Shown here one piece after another: positions 51,202-57,531 of a stretch of 64,000 bases of DNA (position 1 is the first letter of the stretch; each line of letters opens with the position of its first letter). The position numbers were made by a program, and so were the translations under genes. This DNA is from Cryomorphaceae bacterium (GTDB taxonomy: Bacteria > Bacteroidota > Bacteroidia > Flavobacteriales > Schleiferiaceae), in assembly GCA_017858515.1 (NCBI GenBank), contig JAFMBM010000004.1, forward strand, positions 1 through 64,000, read 5' to 3'. The notes under the pieces are model-generated. The model did no database searches. It saw only the letters and a program-made list of their open reading frames with translations, and was not told the origin of the DNA.

Positions 51202-51999
51202 TTAACCTTCGGTTTTTCCAAATGCCCAATTCACGAAGTATGGAATAATAATTCCATAGGTTTCTAAGGTGTGTTTTCCTCCTATGACTTCATAATGAAA
51301 GAGATCTTTACCTGTTTCAAATCCTTTCTCCTTCAATTCTTTAACTAAATCGAGCATGTCGTCGACGCTATCTATAATTCCATTCTTATTCCGATCCGAT
51401 GCCTCGTCTAAAGTTCCTGCTTGAAGCCAGATTTTAATATTTGGTTTTTCAGCAGTTTCGCGAACTACGCGATGCATAATTCTATCATTATCAGTATAAT
51501 TGTCCGACAAGTCTTTGCTTCTATACCAAAATGAAGGGCTTGCTGCCATCACTTTTGAAAACTCTTTTGGGTAGTTCCAAGCAATGTCAAATGCTGAAAG
51601 TCCTCCAAGACTGAATCCACCAATAATTCGCTCGGTGAACTTATTAATATTCAATTCTTTACGAATAAACGGTATGCATTCTGATATTAAAAAGCGACTG
51701 TATTTCTTTGCCAACTTCCCTCTACCGTTAAAATCTGGATTTCCTATAATGCCATAGGTATCCATTCTGTAGAAGGCGTGCACTGCTGCAAGGACGAAAT
51801 GTTCGCATACATCGTGTCTCCAAATGTCGTTCACAATCCTTCCCATTTCCATTCCCGCCATGTCTTGACCATCATTCATCAGAAAAAGAGGGTAGGATTT
51901 TCCAGAGTGAAAGTCGGGAGGTAAAAATAGATCTATATAGATTTCAGCATCTAAGTGCTTGGAATACATCTTAACGGTGCGACTTAAAAGTTTTTTCAT
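51202..51999 (-). CDS. Alpha/beta hydrolase of the esterase D family
   Basis: The 265-residue enzyme is an alpha/beta hydrolase of the esterase D / Fes-like type: IYIDLFLPPDFHSGKSYPLF, DGQDMAG oxyanion region, nucleophile Ser in GGFSLGGLSAFD, an acid in QAGTLDEASDRN and a C-terminal His in VIGGKHTLETYG. A Ca-binding-like DRNKNGIIDSVDD loop lies between acid and His. There is no signal peptide. The ATG at 51999 is used; the longer frame from 52236 passes through the neighbouring gene. It is divergent from the similar gene at 52100, suggesting membership in the same pathway. Confidence 0.86.
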   Translation of the reverse strand: MKKLLSRTVKMYSKHLDAEIYIDLFLPPDFHSGKSYPLFLMNDGQDMAGMEMGRIVNDIWRHDVCEHFVLAAVHAFYRMDTYGIIGNPDFNGRGKLAKKYSRFLISECIPFIRKELNINKFTERIIGGFSLGGLSAFDIAWNYPKEFSKVMAASPSFWYRSKDLSDNYTDNDRIMHRVVRETAEKPNIKIWLQAGTLDEASDRNKNGIIDSVDDMLDLVKELKEKGFETGKDLFHYEVIGGKHTLETYGIIIPYFVNWAFGKTEG

Positions 52000-52099
52000 A
52001 CTTACAGACAATATTAGTGTGCTTGATTGGGAAAACCTTAGCAGTTTATTCACATATTTGACATAAGCGTTTAAACTAAGAACACTAAGGGAAATTAAG
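52000..52099. promoter_or_regulatory. Divergent promoter region of the amidoligase cluster
   Basis: This 100-bp gap separates the two hydrolase genes. On the plus strand TTG at 52027-52029 lies 23 bp before CATATTTG (52053-52060, one mismatch to TAnnTTTG). On the minus strand TAATATTG (52009-52016) is a weaker one-mismatch match. Both directions could be controlled together, but no palindromic operator stands out. Confidence 0.4.
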
Positions 52100-52804
52100 A
52101 TGGAAGAGAGTATTGTAAATTGGTATTCGAATGCCTTAGAATTGGATGTGAAAATGTTAGTGTTTGGCTCAAAGGGCCTTCCTATCATACTTTTTCCGAC
52201 TTCCATGGGTAAGCACAACGAGAATAAGGATTTCAAATTAATTGAATCTGCTGCTTGGTATATTGATAATGGATTTGTTCAGATTTATTGTCCAGATGGT
52301 TTTGATGAACTCAGTTGGTACAATAAAAACGTGCCGCCTTCTGTGCGAGTGCACAACCATGTTTGCTATGATCGAATGTTACATGAAGAACTCATTCCAG
52401 AAATCAAGCAGAGAACAGGATTTTCAAAAGTAGCGTTGGCTGGATGTAGTTTTGGAGGCTATCATGCTGCAAATTATGGATTTAGACATCCTGAAAATGT
52501 GAGTCATATCATGACTATGGGTGCCGCTTTTGATATTAGGGATCAGGTGAAAGGGCATTATGATGATGCTGTATATTTTAATAATCCTGTTGATTTTCTT
52601 AAAAACGCCTCGGATCCAGCAATTTGGGATATTAAAATTGTCTTAGGCACAACGGAGGACGATATGTGTAAGGGTTCTACTCTCGAATTGAGCCATATTC
52701 TCAATTCAAAAGGCATTCAGCATTGGATAGACATTAGACCCTATGGAGCGCATGATTGGCCTATTTGGAGAGAAATGTTTCCTCACTATCTTTCAGCACG
52801 ATAA
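52100..52804 (+). CDS. Alpha/beta hydrolase (second esterase of the cluster)
   Basis: The 234-residue protein is a compact alpha/beta hydrolase with the nucleophile elbow GCSFGGYHA, an acid region (LGTTEDDMCKGS) and a catalytic His in YGAHDWPIWRE. The N-terminal LVFGSKGLPIILFPTSMGKH carries the oxyanion loop. It lacks a signal peptide. It resembles esterase families with the PYGAHDWP ending. It heads the plus-strand cluster, 42 bp before the first ATP-grasp gene, so it probably hydrolyses, transfers or proofreads the cluster's product. Confidence 0.85.
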   Translation: MEESIVNWYSNALELDVKMLVFGSKGLPIILFPTSMGKHNENKDFKLIESAAWYIDNGFVQIYCPDGFDELSWYNKNVPPSVRVHNHVCYDRMLHEELIPEIKQRTGFSKVALAGCSFGGYHAANYGFRHPENVSHIMTMGAAFDIRDQVKGHYDDAVYFNNPVDFLKNASDPAIWDIKIVLGTTEDDMCKGSTLELSHILNSKGIQHWIDIRPYGAHDWPIWREMFPHYLSAR

Positions 52805-52846
52805 ATAACAAGGACCGAGTAAATACTGACTAATAAATCTAAGAAT

Positions 52847-53929
52847 ATGAAGAAGATCGGAATACTTCACGGCAAAGAAAGAAGCTTCCCTGAGGCATTT
52901 GTGAGAGAAGTGAATAGCAGAGGAGAAAAGGATATTGTGGCTGAGTCGGTGTATATCGACAAGCTATCGCAGGGAGCAGATACTGGATATGCAGTAATTA
53001 TAGATAGAATCAGCCAAGATGTGCCGTTTTATCGCGCTTATTTGAAGACAGCCGCCATTATGGGAACGGCTGTAGTTAATAATCCATTTTGGTGGAGTGC
53101 AGATGAAAAGTTCTTCAACAATAGTCTGGCTATGAAGTTAGGAGTACCTGTGCCAAAGACCTATTTGTTGCCGAGTTATGAGCGTCCTGATGACACATCT
53201 CCGGAGTCTTTCTCTAATATGGCAATGCCTTTAGATTGGGAAACTATTTATAAAGAGATAGGTTTTCCAGCCTATATGAAGCCTCATGCTGGTGGGGGGT
53301 GGAAGAGTGTTTATAAAGTGAATGATCCCCAAGATTTATTCGATAAACACGCAGAAACGGAGCAGCTGGTTATGATGCTACAGGAAGAAATTATTTTCGA
53401 TGAATACTATAGAGTGTACTGTATTGGAGGTAAGTACGTTAAAATTATGCAGTATGAGCCAAGAAATCCTCATCATCTTCGCTACGTTGTAGACACACCT
53501 CCTTCAAGTCAAGCTATGTTGGATACAATTCGTGATTATACCTTGAGATTGTGTAAAGGTTTAGGATACGATTTTAATACAGTAGAATTTGCAATCCGCG
53601 ATGGAATTCCATATGCTATTGATTTTTGCAATCCAGCTCCTGATGCAGATATTCATTCTGTTGGAAAGGAAAATTTTGAATGGGTAGTAAAAGCGGCGGC
53701 TGACTTTGCAATTGAAAAAGCCAAAGCACATACCTCTGGGAGAGATAACCTTACTTGGGGAAGTTTCGTGAGAGATTCAATCGCTAGTCATAACGAAACA
53801 CCGAAAATAAAAGCAGCTGTGGCAAAGCCGAAAGCAGCCGCTTCTAAGCCTGCAGCCAAAGCTAGTGTAGCTGCTAAATCAGTTACACCAAAGCCTGCGG
53901 CTAAAACAACAAAAAAACCTACAAAGTAG
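52847..53929 (+). CDS. ATP-grasp ligase with a Lys/Ala/Pro-rich tail
   Basis: Residues 1-318 form a complete ATP-grasp enzyme. A central lysine lies in FPAYMKPHAGGGWKSVYKV, the adenine-contacting part in MMLQEEIIFDEYYRVY, and metal-binding acidic and Asn residues in VEFAIRDGIPYAIDFCNPAPD. Such enzymes join a carboxylate to an amine or thiol through an acylphosphate. Residues 319-360 are a low-complexity tail (12 Lys, 13 Ala, 6 Pro, no acidic residues), like the tail of histone H1. Substrates are unknown. It lies between the hydrolase and GCS2-type ligase genes. Confidence 0.87.
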   Translation: MKKIGILHGKERSFPEAFVREVNSRGEKDIVAESVYIDKLSQGADTGYAVIIDRISQDVPFYRAYLKTAAIMGTAVVNNPFWWSADEKFFNNSLAMKLGVPVPKTYLLPSYERPDDTSPESFSNMAMPLDWETIYKEIGFPAYMKPHAGGGWKSVYKVNDPQDLFDKHAETEQLVMMLQEEIIFDEYYRVYCIGGKYVKIMQYEPRNPHHLRYVVDTPPSSQAMLDTIRDYTLRLCKGLGYDFNTVEFAIRDGIPYAIDFCNPAPDADIHSVGKENFEWVVKAAADFAIEKAKAHTSGRDNLTWGSFVRDSIASHNETPKIKAAVAKPKAAASKPAAKASVAAKSVTPKPAAKTTKKPTK

Positions 53930-53953
53930 TAAACCATCCCTTAGCCAGACTAT

Positions 53954-55060
53954 ATGAACCCAAAGATGTTTACCATTGGCATTGAAGAGGAGTACATGGT
54001 TATTGACCCTGTAACGAGAGAACTTCGTTCCCATGAGCAGAAAATTGTTGAAAATGCCTCTTTAATACTAAATCCTGATGCGGTTAAGGCAGAAATGCAT
54101 CAAGCAGTGGTTGAGGGTGGAACTGGAATCTGTGCAAACACGGAGGAAGCCCGAAAGGATTTGTCTCATTTAAGGAAAACGGTTAGCCGGGTTGCAAATG
54201 ATATTGGTTTGAGCATTGGCGCTTCTGGCACCCATCCTTTCAGCAGCTGGACTACCCAACTGATAACAGACAATCCTCGATACCATGAGATTGTAATGGA
54301 AATGCAGGAGGCGGCGCGCTCAAATCTTATCTTTGGACTACATGTTCATGTGGGCATGCCAGACAAGAGAATGGCTATGCATATTGCTAATTCTATGCGC
54401 TATTTTCTCCCTCATGTTTTTGCCTTGTCTACTAATTCGCCTTTTTGGGAGGGAAGGGATACTGGGTTTAGATCATTTAGAATTAAGGTTTTTGATAAAT
54501 TTCCTAGAACTGGTATTCCTGAATTCTTTAGTAGTTGGGAGGAATATGAAAACTATGTGAAATTGTTAGTGAAAACGGGTTGTATAGATAATCCCAAGAA
54601 AATTTGGTGGGATTTAAGGGTGCATCCTTTTTTTGATACTGTTGAGTTTAGAATCTGTGATGTTCCAATGCTTTTAGATGAAACCATTGCCATTGCGGCC
54701 ATTTTCCAAGGTCTTTGCGCTAAGCTATATAAACTTAGAGAGCAAAACATTGAGTTTATGCCATATAAACGCTCGCTTATTGCAGAGAATAAATGGAGGG
54801 CTTCTCGTTATGGCTTAGATGGAAAGTTGATCGATTTCGGAAAGGAAACAGAGGTTCCAACAAGACAATTAATTTACGAATTACTTGATTTTATTGATGA
54901 TACAGTAGATGAACTTGGTTCAAGAGACGATATCAATTACGTTGGTAAAATGATGGAAAGAGGAACCGGCGCAGATCGACAGTTAGAGGTATTTTACAAG
55001 AACAAAGACATGAATGAATTAGTCGACTTTATAACAAAATCAACATTAGAAGGACTTTAA
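53954..55060 (+). CDS. GCS2-type carboxylate-amine ligase (YbdK family)
   Basis: The 368-residue enzyme belongs to the glutamate-cysteine ligase type 2 fold: the N-terminal metal site GIEEEYMVIDP, AEMHQAVVEGGTGICANTEEA, the central FGLHVHVGMPDKRMAM and the C-terminal WDLRVHPFFDTVEFRICDVP. The family activates a carboxylate (often gamma-Glu) with ATP and joins it to an amine. The true glutathione enzyme EgtA/GshA also falls here, but the neighbours differ from those pathways. It starts 24 bp after the first ATP-grasp gene and is followed 1 bp later by the amidotransferase-like gene. Confidence 0.92.
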   Translation: MNPKMFTIGIEEEYMVIDPVTRELRSHEQKIVENASLILNPDAVKAEMHQAVVEGGTGICANTEEARKDLSHLRKTVSRVANDIGLSIGASGTHPFSSWTTQLITDNPRYHEIVMEMQEAARSNLIFGLHVHVGMPDKRMAMHIANSMRYFLPHVFALSTNSPFWEGRDTGFRSFRIKVFDKFPRTGIPEFFSSWEEYENYVKLLVKTGCIDNPKKIWWDLRVHPFFDTVEFRICDVPMLLDETIAIAAIFQGLCAKLYKLREQNIEFMPYKRSLIAENKWRASRYGLDGKLIDFGKETEVPTRQLIYELLDFIDDTVDELGSRDDINYVGKMMERGTGADRQLEVFYKNKDMNELVDFITKSTLEGL

Positions 55061-55061
55061 A

Positions 55062-55889
55062 ATGATAAATCTCAAATTAGCCATTTTAGACATGTATAAA
55101 GGCGCACCCAATCAGGGAATGCGGAATATTCATGAAATAGTGGATGGTTATGCAGATGATCATGGAATTCGTCTGGAAAAGAAGGTATTTGATGTCAGAG
55201 GAAAAAACGAATGCCCTGGTCTGGAATACGATGCCTACATTTCAACAGGAGGTCCAGGTAGTCCTATTGATGCAGAGGGTTGGGAAGAAGAATGGAAGAA
55301 TTTGATGGAGTCAATTATAGATTTTAACTCTAAAAGTGAATCATCCAAGAAATATGTTTTTCTAATTTGTCATTCTTTTCAGTTAATGTGTCACCATTTT
55401 CGGCTTGCACATGTCTCTAAAAGAAGAACAGAATCTTTCGGAATATTTCCTATGCATCCAACCTTTGCAGGAAGAAAAAATAAATATACGGGTCAACTTC
55501 CAGATCCTTTCTATGCGGTTGATTCTCGTTTATATCAGGTAGTTAAGCCCGATAGCAGGGCCTTACATAATATGGGTGCTCGAATTTTAGCGATTGAGAA
55601 AGAAAGGACCTATGTTCCTCTTGAGAGAGCTACTATGGCTATTCAATTTACACCTGAAATTGTAGGCACACAATTTCATCCAGAGGCAGATCCGGATGGA
55701 ATGCTCTATTATATGAGAAATGAAGAGAAAAAGCAGGTAATCATTAATAACTATGGACAAGAAAAGTACGATCGGATGATTACTCGATTGCAAGACCCTG
55801 ATATGATTGCACTTACTCAGAAAAAGATGATTCCAGTGTTTTTAGATGAAGTCCTTCATGTCAATTATAAAGAAGTTTTAACCGCATGA
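55062..55889 (+). CDS. Class I glutamine-amidotransferase-like protein
   Basis: The 275-residue protein has the class I GATase order: a first strand ILDMYKG, the STGGPGSPID turn, the nucleophile Cys in LICHSFQLMCHHF (near residue 103), and the C-terminal GTQFHPEAD with His near 204 and Glu. The elbow lacks the glycines of GxCxGxQ (ICHSFQ), so it may hydrolyse amides or gamma-glutamyl peptides other than glutamine. No ammonia-using synthetase domain is attached. It overlaps the next gene by 4 nt (ATGA). Confidence 0.85.
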   Translation: MINLKLAILDMYKGAPNQGMRNIHEIVDGYADDHGIRLEKKVFDVRGKNECPGLEYDAYISTGGPGSPIDAEGWEEEWKNLMESIIDFNSKSESSKKYVFLICHSFQLMCHHFRLAHVSKRRTESFGIFPMHPTFAGRKNKYTGQLPDPFYAVDSRLYQVVKPDSRALHNMGARILAIEKERTYVPLERATMAIQFTPEIVGTQFHPEADPDGMLYYMRNEEKKQVIINNYGQEKYDRMITRLQDPDMIALTQKKMIPVFLDEVLHVNYKEVLTA

Positions 55890-57076
55890 AACAGGATCTG
55901 AGATCATCTTTTAATAGTCAGTTCTCCGAAGACAAGTATGAGAAACTTGAGGAAAAAATTCAAAAAGAATGCAATAATCAGGTGAGTTTTCGAATAGCAG
56001 AAACACCTTTATTTGTTCCCAAAGAGCTAACTAAAAAACTGATTCAGGCAGGTGAGGAAATTTTAGAAGTGCTTCAAAGGCCTTCATTCTTGGAAGAATC
56101 TGAAAGGGCTATTCCAGAAAATGTTAGAGTAAAGAATGAAACAGAAAAGCCTCATTTTATCTGTTTGGATTTTGGCATTTGTGAAGATGAAAATGGTGAT
56201 TTAGAGCCTCAACTAATAGAGTTACAGGCTTTTGCTAGTATGTTTTGTTGGATGGATCAGTTGAGTGGTTCGTATTCAGAATATTTTTCAATTCCTTCTA
56301 ACTTCAGCCCTTATTTCAGTGGGTTGAATCATTTCACTTATTTGGATCTTCTTAAAAAGACTTTAATAGGAGACTGTCCTGTTGAAAAGGTAATTCTCTT
56401 AGAGATAAAACCTGAAGAACAAAATACAAGGGTTGATTTTTATTTAACCCATAAAAATTTTGGAATTGAAGTGGTTTGTCTTAGCAAACTTAAACAAGAC
56501 GGTAAAAGACTATACTATATAAAAGACGGAAAGAGGCAGGATATTGATAGAATTTATAATCGCCTAATTTTCGACGATCTTCAATCACAATCGGATTTTA
56601 ACTATTCGGTTGATCTCTTCGGAGAATTGGAAGTAGAATGGATTACACATCCTAATTGGTTTTATAGAATTAGCAAGTTTACCATGCCTTTTCTTCGCAA
56701 TAAATTTGTACCCGAAACACGTTTTCTGAATACCATTGAATCTATTCCAAGCGATCTTGAAAATTATGTGTTAAAACCACTATTTAGTTTTTCAGGAACG
56801 GGAGTAGTGATTGATGTAACTAAAGATGAAATCAACAAAGTAAAAGATCCTGAAAATTGGATTTTGCAGAGGAAGGTAAATTATGCCGAGGCGCTAAAGT
56901 CACCGGTAGGAGGGGTGAAGTGCGAAATTCGATTAATGTATTTATGGCCGTCTGACCAAGAAAAACCCACCTTAGCAATGTCTTTGGGTAGATTGAGTAG
57001 AGGAAAAATGATTGGAGTTAAATACAATAAAGATTTAAGCTGGGTGGGTAGCACCTCTTGCTTCTTTGAGCAATAG
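55886..57076 (+). CDS. Second ATP-grasp-like ligase of the cluster
   Basis: The 396-residue protein has no clear close relative by eye, but its C-terminal third has the order of ATP-grasp elements: YVLKPLFSFSGTGVVIDV (ATP lysine and glycine-rich loop), WILQRKV, EIRLMYLW with an Arg, SLGRLSRGKMIGVKYNKD, then WVGSTSCFF. The N-terminal part (about 1-250) contains ICLDFGICEDENGDLEPQ and LQAFASMFCW, reminiscent of glutathionylspermidine-synthetase-like enzymes. It is the last of the tightly packed genes, 32 bp before a membrane protein. A role in joining a second building block is inferred from context. Confidence 0.68.
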   Translation: MKQDLRSSFNSQFSEDKYEKLEEKIQKECNNQVSFRIAETPLFVPKELTKKLIQAGEEILEVLQRPSFLEESERAIPENVRVKNETEKPHFICLDFGICEDENGDLEPQLIELQAFASMFCWMDQLSGSYSEYFSIPSNFSPYFSGLNHFTYLDLLKKTLIGDCPVEKVILLEIKPEEQNTRVDFYLTHKNFGIEVVCLSKLKQDGKRLYYIKDGKRQDIDRIYNRLIFDDLQSQSDFNYSVDLFGELEVEWITHPNWFYRISKFTMPFLRNKFVPETRFLNTIESIPSDLENYVLKPLFSFSGTGVVIDVTKDEINKVKDPENWILQRKVNYAEALKSPVGGVKCEIRLMYLWPSDQEKPTLAMSLGRLSRGKMIGVKYNKDLSWVGSTSCFFEQ

Positions 57077-57108: not shown

Positions 57109-57531
57109 ATGTTAAGACAGATTGCCGCGGTTTTTTTAGGAGTACTATCTGCTGGATTAGTTACAAGTGTGGGCGAGAAACTAAGTCATTTACTTTTTCC
57201 ACCGCCTGCGAGTATAGATTTTAATAATCTAGATCAGATGAAAGCATTCTATCAATCTATTCCTAATGAAAGTTTTATTCTTCTTATTGGCGTTTGGGCT
57301 TTAAGCTCATTTGCAGGAGGCCTAGTTGCTGCCGTTATTTCTGTACAATCAAAAAGAAAAGTTGCAATGATTGTGGGAGGTATTCAATTGCTTTTCGCAG
57401 CGATTAATTTCAGTTATTTACCTCACCCTATGTGGGTTGTAGTTTTATCTTTGAGTTTATACGTACCTATGGCTTTTTTGGGAGCGGCGGTTATTGAAAA
57501 GAAACAATCAGGAATAACAGATTTTAAGTAA
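57109..57531 (+). CDS. Small membrane protein with four predicted helices
   Basis: The 140-residue protein has four hydrophobic segments (about residues 5-24, 55-78, 84-104 and 107-127), a conserved-looking SVGEKLSHLLFPPP after the first helix, and no recognisable catalytic or transport motif. It starts 32 bp after the cluster's last ligase gene and may be cotranscribed, but its distance and lack of motif leave its relation to the pathway open. Its 3' end overlaps the AlkB-type gene by 8 bp on the other strand. Confidence 0.7.
   Translation: MLRQIAAVFLGVLSAGLVTSVGEKLSHLLFPPPASIDFNNLDQMKAFYQSIPNESFILLIGVWALSSFAGGLVAAVISVQSKRKVAMIVGGIQLLFAAINFSYLPHPMWVVVLSLSLYVPMAFLGAAVIEKKQSGITDFK

Follow-up and report, generated by a model that had tools for sequence, protein, structure and literature searches.

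What is made by a set of adjacent genes that encode three predicted ATP-dependent ligases, an amidotransferase-like protein and two hydrolases? Such a set lies in the window considered here, a stretch of 64,000 nucleotides from a Cryomorphaceae bacterium (contig JAFMBM010000004.1, positions 1 to 64,000). A preliminary description had proposed that these enzymes would be enough to build and trim a short peptide-like or thiol metabolite, or to attach one to a protein. The six open reading frames were recovered at the same positions and with the same spacing as in that description:

51202 to 51999, minus strand: estA, an esterase-family (PF00756) alpha/beta hydrolase divergent from the operon (domain call, aligned residues)
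52000 to 52099, no strand: divergent intergenic region of 100 bp, presumed to hold the operon promoter(s) (promoter motif scans)
52100 to 52804, plus strand: estB, an alpha/beta hydrolase with a G-C-S-F-G-G nucleophile motif (domain call, aligned residues)
52847 to 53929, plus strand: ATPG1, a RimK/LysX-type ATP-grasp carboxylate-amine ligase ending in a disordered C-terminal tail (family match, fold comparison)
53954 to 55060, plus strand: GCS2, a carboxylate-amine ligase of the PRK13515 family (YbdK-type) (PF04107 and PRK13515 matches)
55062 to 55889, plus strand: GAT, a protein of the class-I glutamine-amidotransferase fold (PF00117, invariant triad)
55886 to 57076, plus strand: ATPG2, a circularly permuted ATP-grasp of the glutathione/glutathionylspermidine synthetase/YgiC-YjfC structural group (predicted structure)

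Gene order and phyletic distribution

The plus-strand genes are closely packed in the order estB, ATPG1, GCS2, GAT, ATPG2, with estA read the opposite way; the gaps are 42 bp for estB/ATPG1 (52804/52847), 24 bp for ATPG1/GCS2 (53929/53954) and 1 bp for GCS2/GAT (55060/55062), and GAT overlaps ATPG2 by 4 bp (-4; 55889/55886). The same order recurs in Pedobacter, Mucilaginibacter, Algoriphagus, Dyadobacter, Polaribacter, Cryomorpha and other Bacteroidota, so the arrangement is not due to chance. Median gaps across relatives are 25 bp for ATPG1-GCS2 (n=44), 38 bp for GCS2-GAT (n=32) and 15 bp for GAT-ATPG2 (n=39), and GCS2 lies within 9 kb at 49 of the 92 loci carrying ATPG2. The adjacency is thus conserved in relatives, a point on which the preliminary description had made its proposal depend. 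The best 80 loci in a scan of genome contigs are all from Bacteroidota, and the module is present in about a third of the sampled members of that phylum; among 72,556 plasmid records there was no match to ATPG1.

Co-occurrence was scored for all four genes on the same set of 296 genomes, where ATPG1 was found in 108, GCS2 in 103, ATPG2 in 92 and GAT in 70. ATPG1 accompanies ATPG2 in 89 of the 92 ATPG2 genomes; 19 genomes have ATPG1 without ATPG2, three have ATPG2 without ATPG1, and 185 have neither (Fisher p 3e-52, a value that, like the other co-occurrence p-values, ignores shared ancestry). All three ligases are held by 84 of the 92 ATPG2 genomes, and in many of these the genes are not linked locally. 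One family includes six to seven genomes with the set and 20 others listed without any of the four genes. As a point against the joint pathway proposed below, four genomes of another group keep ATPG1, GAT and ATPG2 and have no GCS2. A second lineage has another permuted ATP-grasp (CP_ATPgrasp-like) in place of ATPG2, as seen in the 12 ATPG2-lacking loci fetched with an ATPG1 more than 45% identical.

By their folds and their co-occurrence, the three ligases make up a conserved functional unit, together with esterases and an amide hydrolase that is optional. We give a probability of about 0.5 to the proposal that the operon makes and recycles one small amide-linked, peptide-like metabolite, for which a small gamma-glutamyl or isopeptide-type amide is the best reading.

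The three ligases

ATPG1 matches the RimK-family ligase model TIGR00768 (6.8e-09) at 35.5 bits, under the curated family cut-off of 143.4 bits. By structure it is nearest to RimK and LysX/ArgX (Z 20-21 over 253-262 residues), which places it in the RimK/LysX ATP-grasp fold; it is only 14-17% identical to these proteins, and no LysW-like carrier or ribosomal partner is found beside it. The C-terminal tail of ATPG1 (residues about 319-360) is rich in Lys, Ala and Pro and disordered.

The acceptors known for these relatives, which include RpsF and LysW, raise the alternative that the locus tags proteins or peptides: ATPG1 would ligate amino acids onto a protein C-terminus, either on a ribosomal protein or carrier or on its own tail; extension or capping would fall to the other two ligases, and removal of the tag to the hydrolases. 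Long Lys-rich disordered tails on some ATPG1 proteins are consistent with this idea. However, the tail varies among relatives and is absent in many lineages, and it therefore cannot be a general acceptor; the operon yielded no conserved small open reading frame, carrier or precursor, and its intergenic gaps leave no space for one. Small molecules are also the classical substrates of GCS2- and GSHS/GSPS-type enzymes, which counts against tagging, and this explanation seems unlikely.

GCS2 matches PF04107 (4.8e-64) and has solved relatives in 1r8g and 1tt4. It is a full member of the YbdK-family ligases (PRK13515, TIGR02050) by the curated cut-off (NF010039/PRK13515, 522.1 bits versus 371) and differs from them in being tied to two further ligases. 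We know of no established natural substrate for the YbdK family.

ATPG2 is recognised by structure. Its single sequence gave no match in Pfam (E 0.1), NCBIfam or the PDB, and the Pfam GSP_synth family likewise gave no HMM match at E 0.1. The AlphaFold model (pLDDT 93) is a full-length circularly permuted ATP-grasp, with Z 24-26 over 341-368 residues to YjfC, YgiC, Gss and GSH synthetases (hGSS), whereas non-permuted ATP-grasps score Z under 9. By this predicted structure ATPG2 belongs to the glutathione/glutathionylspermidine synthetase/YgiC-YjfC structural group, which bears out the ATP-grasp assignment of the preliminary description. The shared fold alone does not prove activity. A local sequence match to YgiC, with 30% identity across 80 columns (hhalign E 3.6e-05), supports the same placement; at the profile level YgiC is matched weakly (E 0.015).

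The comparison with E. coli YgiC and YjfC (peptide-spermidine ligases) and with Gss brings out both likeness and difference. ATPG2 shares with them the full-length permuted fold (Z 25-26 over 328-347 residues, rmsd 3.1-3.9) and a Lys and Gly-loop region (YVLKPLFSFSGTG / YVVKPIFSREGAN), and motif matching suggests Asp/Glu metal ligands as well; identity is 12-15%, ATPG2 has no amidase domain, and the operon partners differ. Invariant residues of ATPG2 are D95, E112, Q114, K264, K297, E347, R349 and R369. Among the putative Mg ligands of the N-terminal half, matched by motif, D95 and E112 are invariant and the third position is always Gln114, whereas the family pattern is Asp-Glu-Asn. YgiC and Gss keep an Arg that precedes the metal Asp by two positions (R100/D102), but this catalytic Arg is not kept in ATPG2, where the motif-matched position 93 is mostly Ala, Gln or Val and is Cys in the window; the chemistry or the donor may therefore differ. 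Eukaryotic-type glutathione and homoglutathione synthetases and the fungal Cp1B of E-64 biosynthesis have the same permuted fold (Z about 20-24.5), although ATPG2 is shorter and has no glutathione or E-64 pathway context. Cp1B, like ATPG2, escapes Pfam and is recognisable by structure alone (PMC12568646).

This placement alters one statement of the preliminary description, that no known glutathione gene lies beside the cluster. It is misleading, since ATPG2, with its predicted glutathione/glutathionylspermidine-synthetase fold, adjoins GCS2, a ligase of gamma-glutamylcysteine-ligase type. The same adjacency argues for a glutathione-like low-molecular-weight thiol or a polyamine conjugate, in which GCS2 would form a gamma-Glu-Cys type bond, ATPG2 would complete the product and the esterases would act like S-formylglutathione hydrolase; estA resembles that enzyme weakly (E 0.012), YgiC and YjfC are termed peptidylpolyamine synthetases, and the NCBI name of YgiC is 'peptide--spermidine ligase'. 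Against this, YbdK-type enzymes are weak Glu-Cys ligases, the Arg of YgiC and Gss is missing from ATPG2, glutathione synthesis has no counterpart of ATPG1, and the neighbourhoods examined contain no recurring thiol-redox, cysteine or polyamine gene. A product of this kind is distinctly improbable.

The amide enzyme and the hydrolases

GAT matches PF00117 (2.7e-06), and the Cys103, His206 and Glu208 of its class-I amidotransferase triad are invariant in 24 sequences. The intact triad, and the presence of ATPG1 in 69 of the 70 GAT genomes, would suit a protein that feeds ammonia from glutamine to a ligase and so yields a primary amide. Thirty-four genomes, however, keep the ligase set without GAT, and at five loci its slot is filled by an M29-like metallopeptidase, which would not be expected to free glutamine ammonia for a partner; there is little chance that ammonia supply is its role. 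The operon of another lineage also lacks GAT, and the gene is absent in 37 of the 92 ATPG2 genomes. It is optional and outside the obligatory core; its dispensability and replacement, as judged from these sequence comparisons, favour a hydrolase over an ammonia donor. The structural part of the preliminary proposal holds for the three ligase folds and the conserved set, but not for GAT as a constant member.

The hydrolases flank a divergent region. The domain of estA is Esterase PF00756 (2e-21, Pfam), with Ser130 (GFSLGG), Asp/Glu198-199 and His243 near-invariant, and estA is the divergent neighbour at many relatives' loci. The estB product, which we take to be COG4947-like, matches PF00561 (3.6e-07) and PF00756 (1.5e-06), consistent with an alpha/beta hydrolase; Ser117 is present in 33 of 37 aligned sequences and His218 in 34 of 37. 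A sigma-70 scan was at background (20 matches found versus 19.9 expected), and the region between the two genes has neither a sigma-70 nor a sigma-54 motif above that level. The naming of COG2170 in PMC12316311, and a GG-N10-GC match in the window scoring 8 of 12, prompted the idea of sigma-54 control, but the idea was rejected because the relatives' GG-N10-GC scores are not above those of random stretches. Assignment to a known anti-phage defence system was likewise rejected for want of PADLOC support, as the cluster proteins gave no match beyond a weak and probably spurious one of estA to a methyltransferase model.

A candidate small amide-linked metabolite

In the proposed pathway each ligase would use ATP to activate a carboxylate as an acyl phosphate and then join it to an amine. 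A short peptide, acidic or gamma-linked, would arise from ATPG1 and GCS2 and receive its last amine or amino acid from ATPG2, in the manner of glutathione synthetase, glutathionylspermidine synthetase and YgiC. Cutting of the product or its adducts, and with it turnover of the pool, would fall to the hydrolases and to GAT or the M29-type peptidase that replaces it.

An accessory role in cyanophycin (multi-arginyl-poly-aspartate) metabolism is very improbable and was set aside: genes for cphA, cyanophycinase and isoaspartyl-peptidase adjoin the operon at four loci of one genus and lie on another contig of the window's own genome, but across the 296 genomes the ligases have no significant phylum-wide association with cphA (ATPG1, p 0.21; GCS2, p 0.14; ATPG2, p 0.09), GAT alone giving p 0.0015 before any correction for relatedness.

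No publication on this gene cluster turned up in literature searches. The survey of Iyer et al. of 2009 reportedly described ATP-grasp and GCS-type ligases in conserved neighbourhoods with unrelated peptidases; it may have catalogued part of this set and is probably the comparative-genomics work that the preliminary description mentioned. A tentative further reading of the proposed amide-linked metabolite, possible but held with reserve, is a small molecule, not described so far, that serves as cofactor or buffer throughout the Bacteroidota: a gamma-glutamyl-peptide-amine made by three dedicated ligases and served by its own recycling hydrolases, a counterpart of glutathione or glutathionylspermidine with a different chemistry. 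With ATPG2 placed by its model in the glutathione/glutathionylspermidine-synthetase fold, a few candidate substrates would allow a direct test of the question. If the product is glutathione-like or a peptide-polyamine, a major metabolite of a dominant environmental phylum would have gone unrecognised.

Gene content and conserved order

The preliminary description had given six open reading frames at 51202-57076 with their strands and gaps, and these match the window sequence. Searches of Pfam and NCBIfam identified the two alpha/beta hydrolases (estA and estB) as such and assigned a class-I glutamine amidotransferase fold to GAT; the GCS2-type carboxylate-amine ligase matched PRK13515 (NCBIfam) far above the cut-off. 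ATPG1 matched RimK-like ATP-grasp proteins under the family cut-off in the Pfam and NCBIfam search; ATPG2, the last gene, had no match in Pfam, NCBIfam or the PDB, the last queried with a single sequence. The closest relative among the matches listed, a Cryomorphaceae metagenome bin (L122), has an identical gene order and an ATPG1 that is 90% identical. Immediately downstream of the cluster (57109-57531) lies a hydrophobic 140-aa ORF that adjoins it elsewhere in L122 only and is outside the conserved unit.

Co-occurrence in Bacteroidota was examined from two seeds. ATPG2, used as query over 296 genomes of the phylum, is present in 92, almost always as a single copy; within 9 kb on either side of these 92 loci, gene order is near-constant and GCS2 (49), ATPG1 (48), GAT (41) and estB (37) recur. 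The best 80 ATPG1-seeded loci among the matches listed, all from Bacteroidota, contain GCS2 (78), GAT (64), estB (63), estA (62) and ATPG2 (62). Median gaps across relatives are 25, 38 and 15 bp (ATPG1-GCS2, GCS2-GAT and GAT-ATPG2), and the window's flanking genes (sucC-like, transaldolase, alkB-like and M3 peptidase) are not kept beside the cluster in the relatives' loci.

Folds of the two ATP-grasp proteins

The AlphaFold2 model of ATPG2, built with 54 relatives as input (mean pLDDT 93.4, pTM 0.92), has the ATP-grasp fold proposed for this protein, in its permuted form. Its structural neighbours (Foldseek, VIA-align) are putative GSP synthetases, YjfC, YgiC, Gss, trypanothione synthetase and eukaryotic GSH synthetases, with most scores at Z 20-26 across the greater part of the chain, versus Z <9 for non-permuted ATP-grasps; a weak sequence match to YgiC agrees with this placement. 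Published work (PMC12568646) describes YgiC and YjfC as peptidylpolyamine synthetases and the fungal relative, Cp1B, as a pseudodipeptide ligase. Invariant residues of ATPG2 include D95, E112, Q114, K264, K297, E347, R349 and R369, of which D95/E112/Q114 would correspond, as matched by motif, to the Asp-Glu-Asn metal ligands of the GSH/GSP synthetase group; the Arg before this Asp is kept in YgiC and Gss but is not conserved in ATPG2.

The ATPG1 model is confident across most of residues 1-300, with RimK and LysX/ArgX as nearest folds (Z 20-21). Residues ~319-360 are predicted to be disordered and are Lys/Ala/Pro-rich; the tail ranges from 0 to ~120 residues in relatives.

Window 53800-53929, plus strand: ATPG1 tail, Lys/Ala/Pro-rich, histone-like, disordered; likewise in relatives' loci L048, L064, L083 and L092

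Co-inheritance and variable partners

Across the same 296 genomes, where shared ancestry inflates co-occurrence p-values, ATPG1 is found in 108, GCS2 in 103, ATPG2 in 92 and GAT in 70. All four occur together in 50 genomes, the three ligases without GAT in 34, and none in 176; partial sets are ATPG1+GAT (8), ATPG1+GCS2+GAT (7) and ATPG1+GAT+ATPG2 (4). Of the 84 three-ligase genomes, many have ATPG2 at a distance from ATPG1 and GCS2, so the ligase association is more than a frozen operon. The set is patchy in one family (f3), in which the 20 listed genomes without ATPG2 also lack ATPG1, GCS2 and GAT. Four genomes of another family (L064, L083, G037 and G178 of f6) have ATPG1, GAT and ATPG2, with GCS2 unmatched genome-wide.

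All 12 fetched loci that lack ATPG2 and have an ATPG1 >45% identical contain a protein of ~470-480 aa adjoining ATPG1, usually with GAT and an additional esterase alongside. Since this protein resembles CP_ATPgrasp_2 (sub-threshold, E 8e-07), one permuted ligase seems to stand in for another.

L233-L243, genomes without ATPG2: estB, ATPG1, CP_ATPgrasp-like ligase, GAT, 318-aa esterase

A third ATP-grasp and an isoaspartyl peptidase are appended in two loci of this second architecture.

GAT has a complete Cys-His-Glu triad in 24 sequences yet is dispensable. Its slot is occupied by an M29-like peptidase in L057, L062, L067, L094 and L095, and in lineage f17 ATPG1, GCS2 and ATPG2 are contiguous, the GAT gene lying elsewhere in the genome. 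This replacement, and the absence from the f17 operon, argue for a predicted hydrolytic role. In L056, L058, L071 and L074 the estB-like protein lacks the catalytic Ser and may be degenerate or repurposed. Several loci have an M17 aminopeptidase and a third ATP-grasp close by. An Amidohydro_3 family protein adjoins ATPG2, upstream in many cases, in genomes with dispersed ligases (L103-L121); in a few more (L042, L049, L195, L199 and L216) it lies within the cluster or close to it.

The host itself probably makes cyanophycin, judging from its gene content.

L210:7701-12250, contig C51 of the window's own genome: isoaspartyl peptidase, cyanophycinase and cyanophycin synthetase, contiguous

In one genus (L077, L085, L086 and L089) such a set directly adjoins the amidoligase operon.

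Proposed pathway

Every kind of enzyme in the cluster is already known; the literature searched yielded no report of their combination, of ATPG2 as a permuted ligase or of the phylum-wide co-inheritance. Part of this may have been listed earlier, by Iyer et al. in 2009. Three consecutive acyl-phosphate ligations would build a short peptide-like amide, with ATPG2 performing the final ligation by analogy with GSH/GSP synthetases, and GAT and the hydrolases would trim the product or its adducts. The repeated association of ligases with unrelated hydrolases fits a compound that is both synthesised and degraded.
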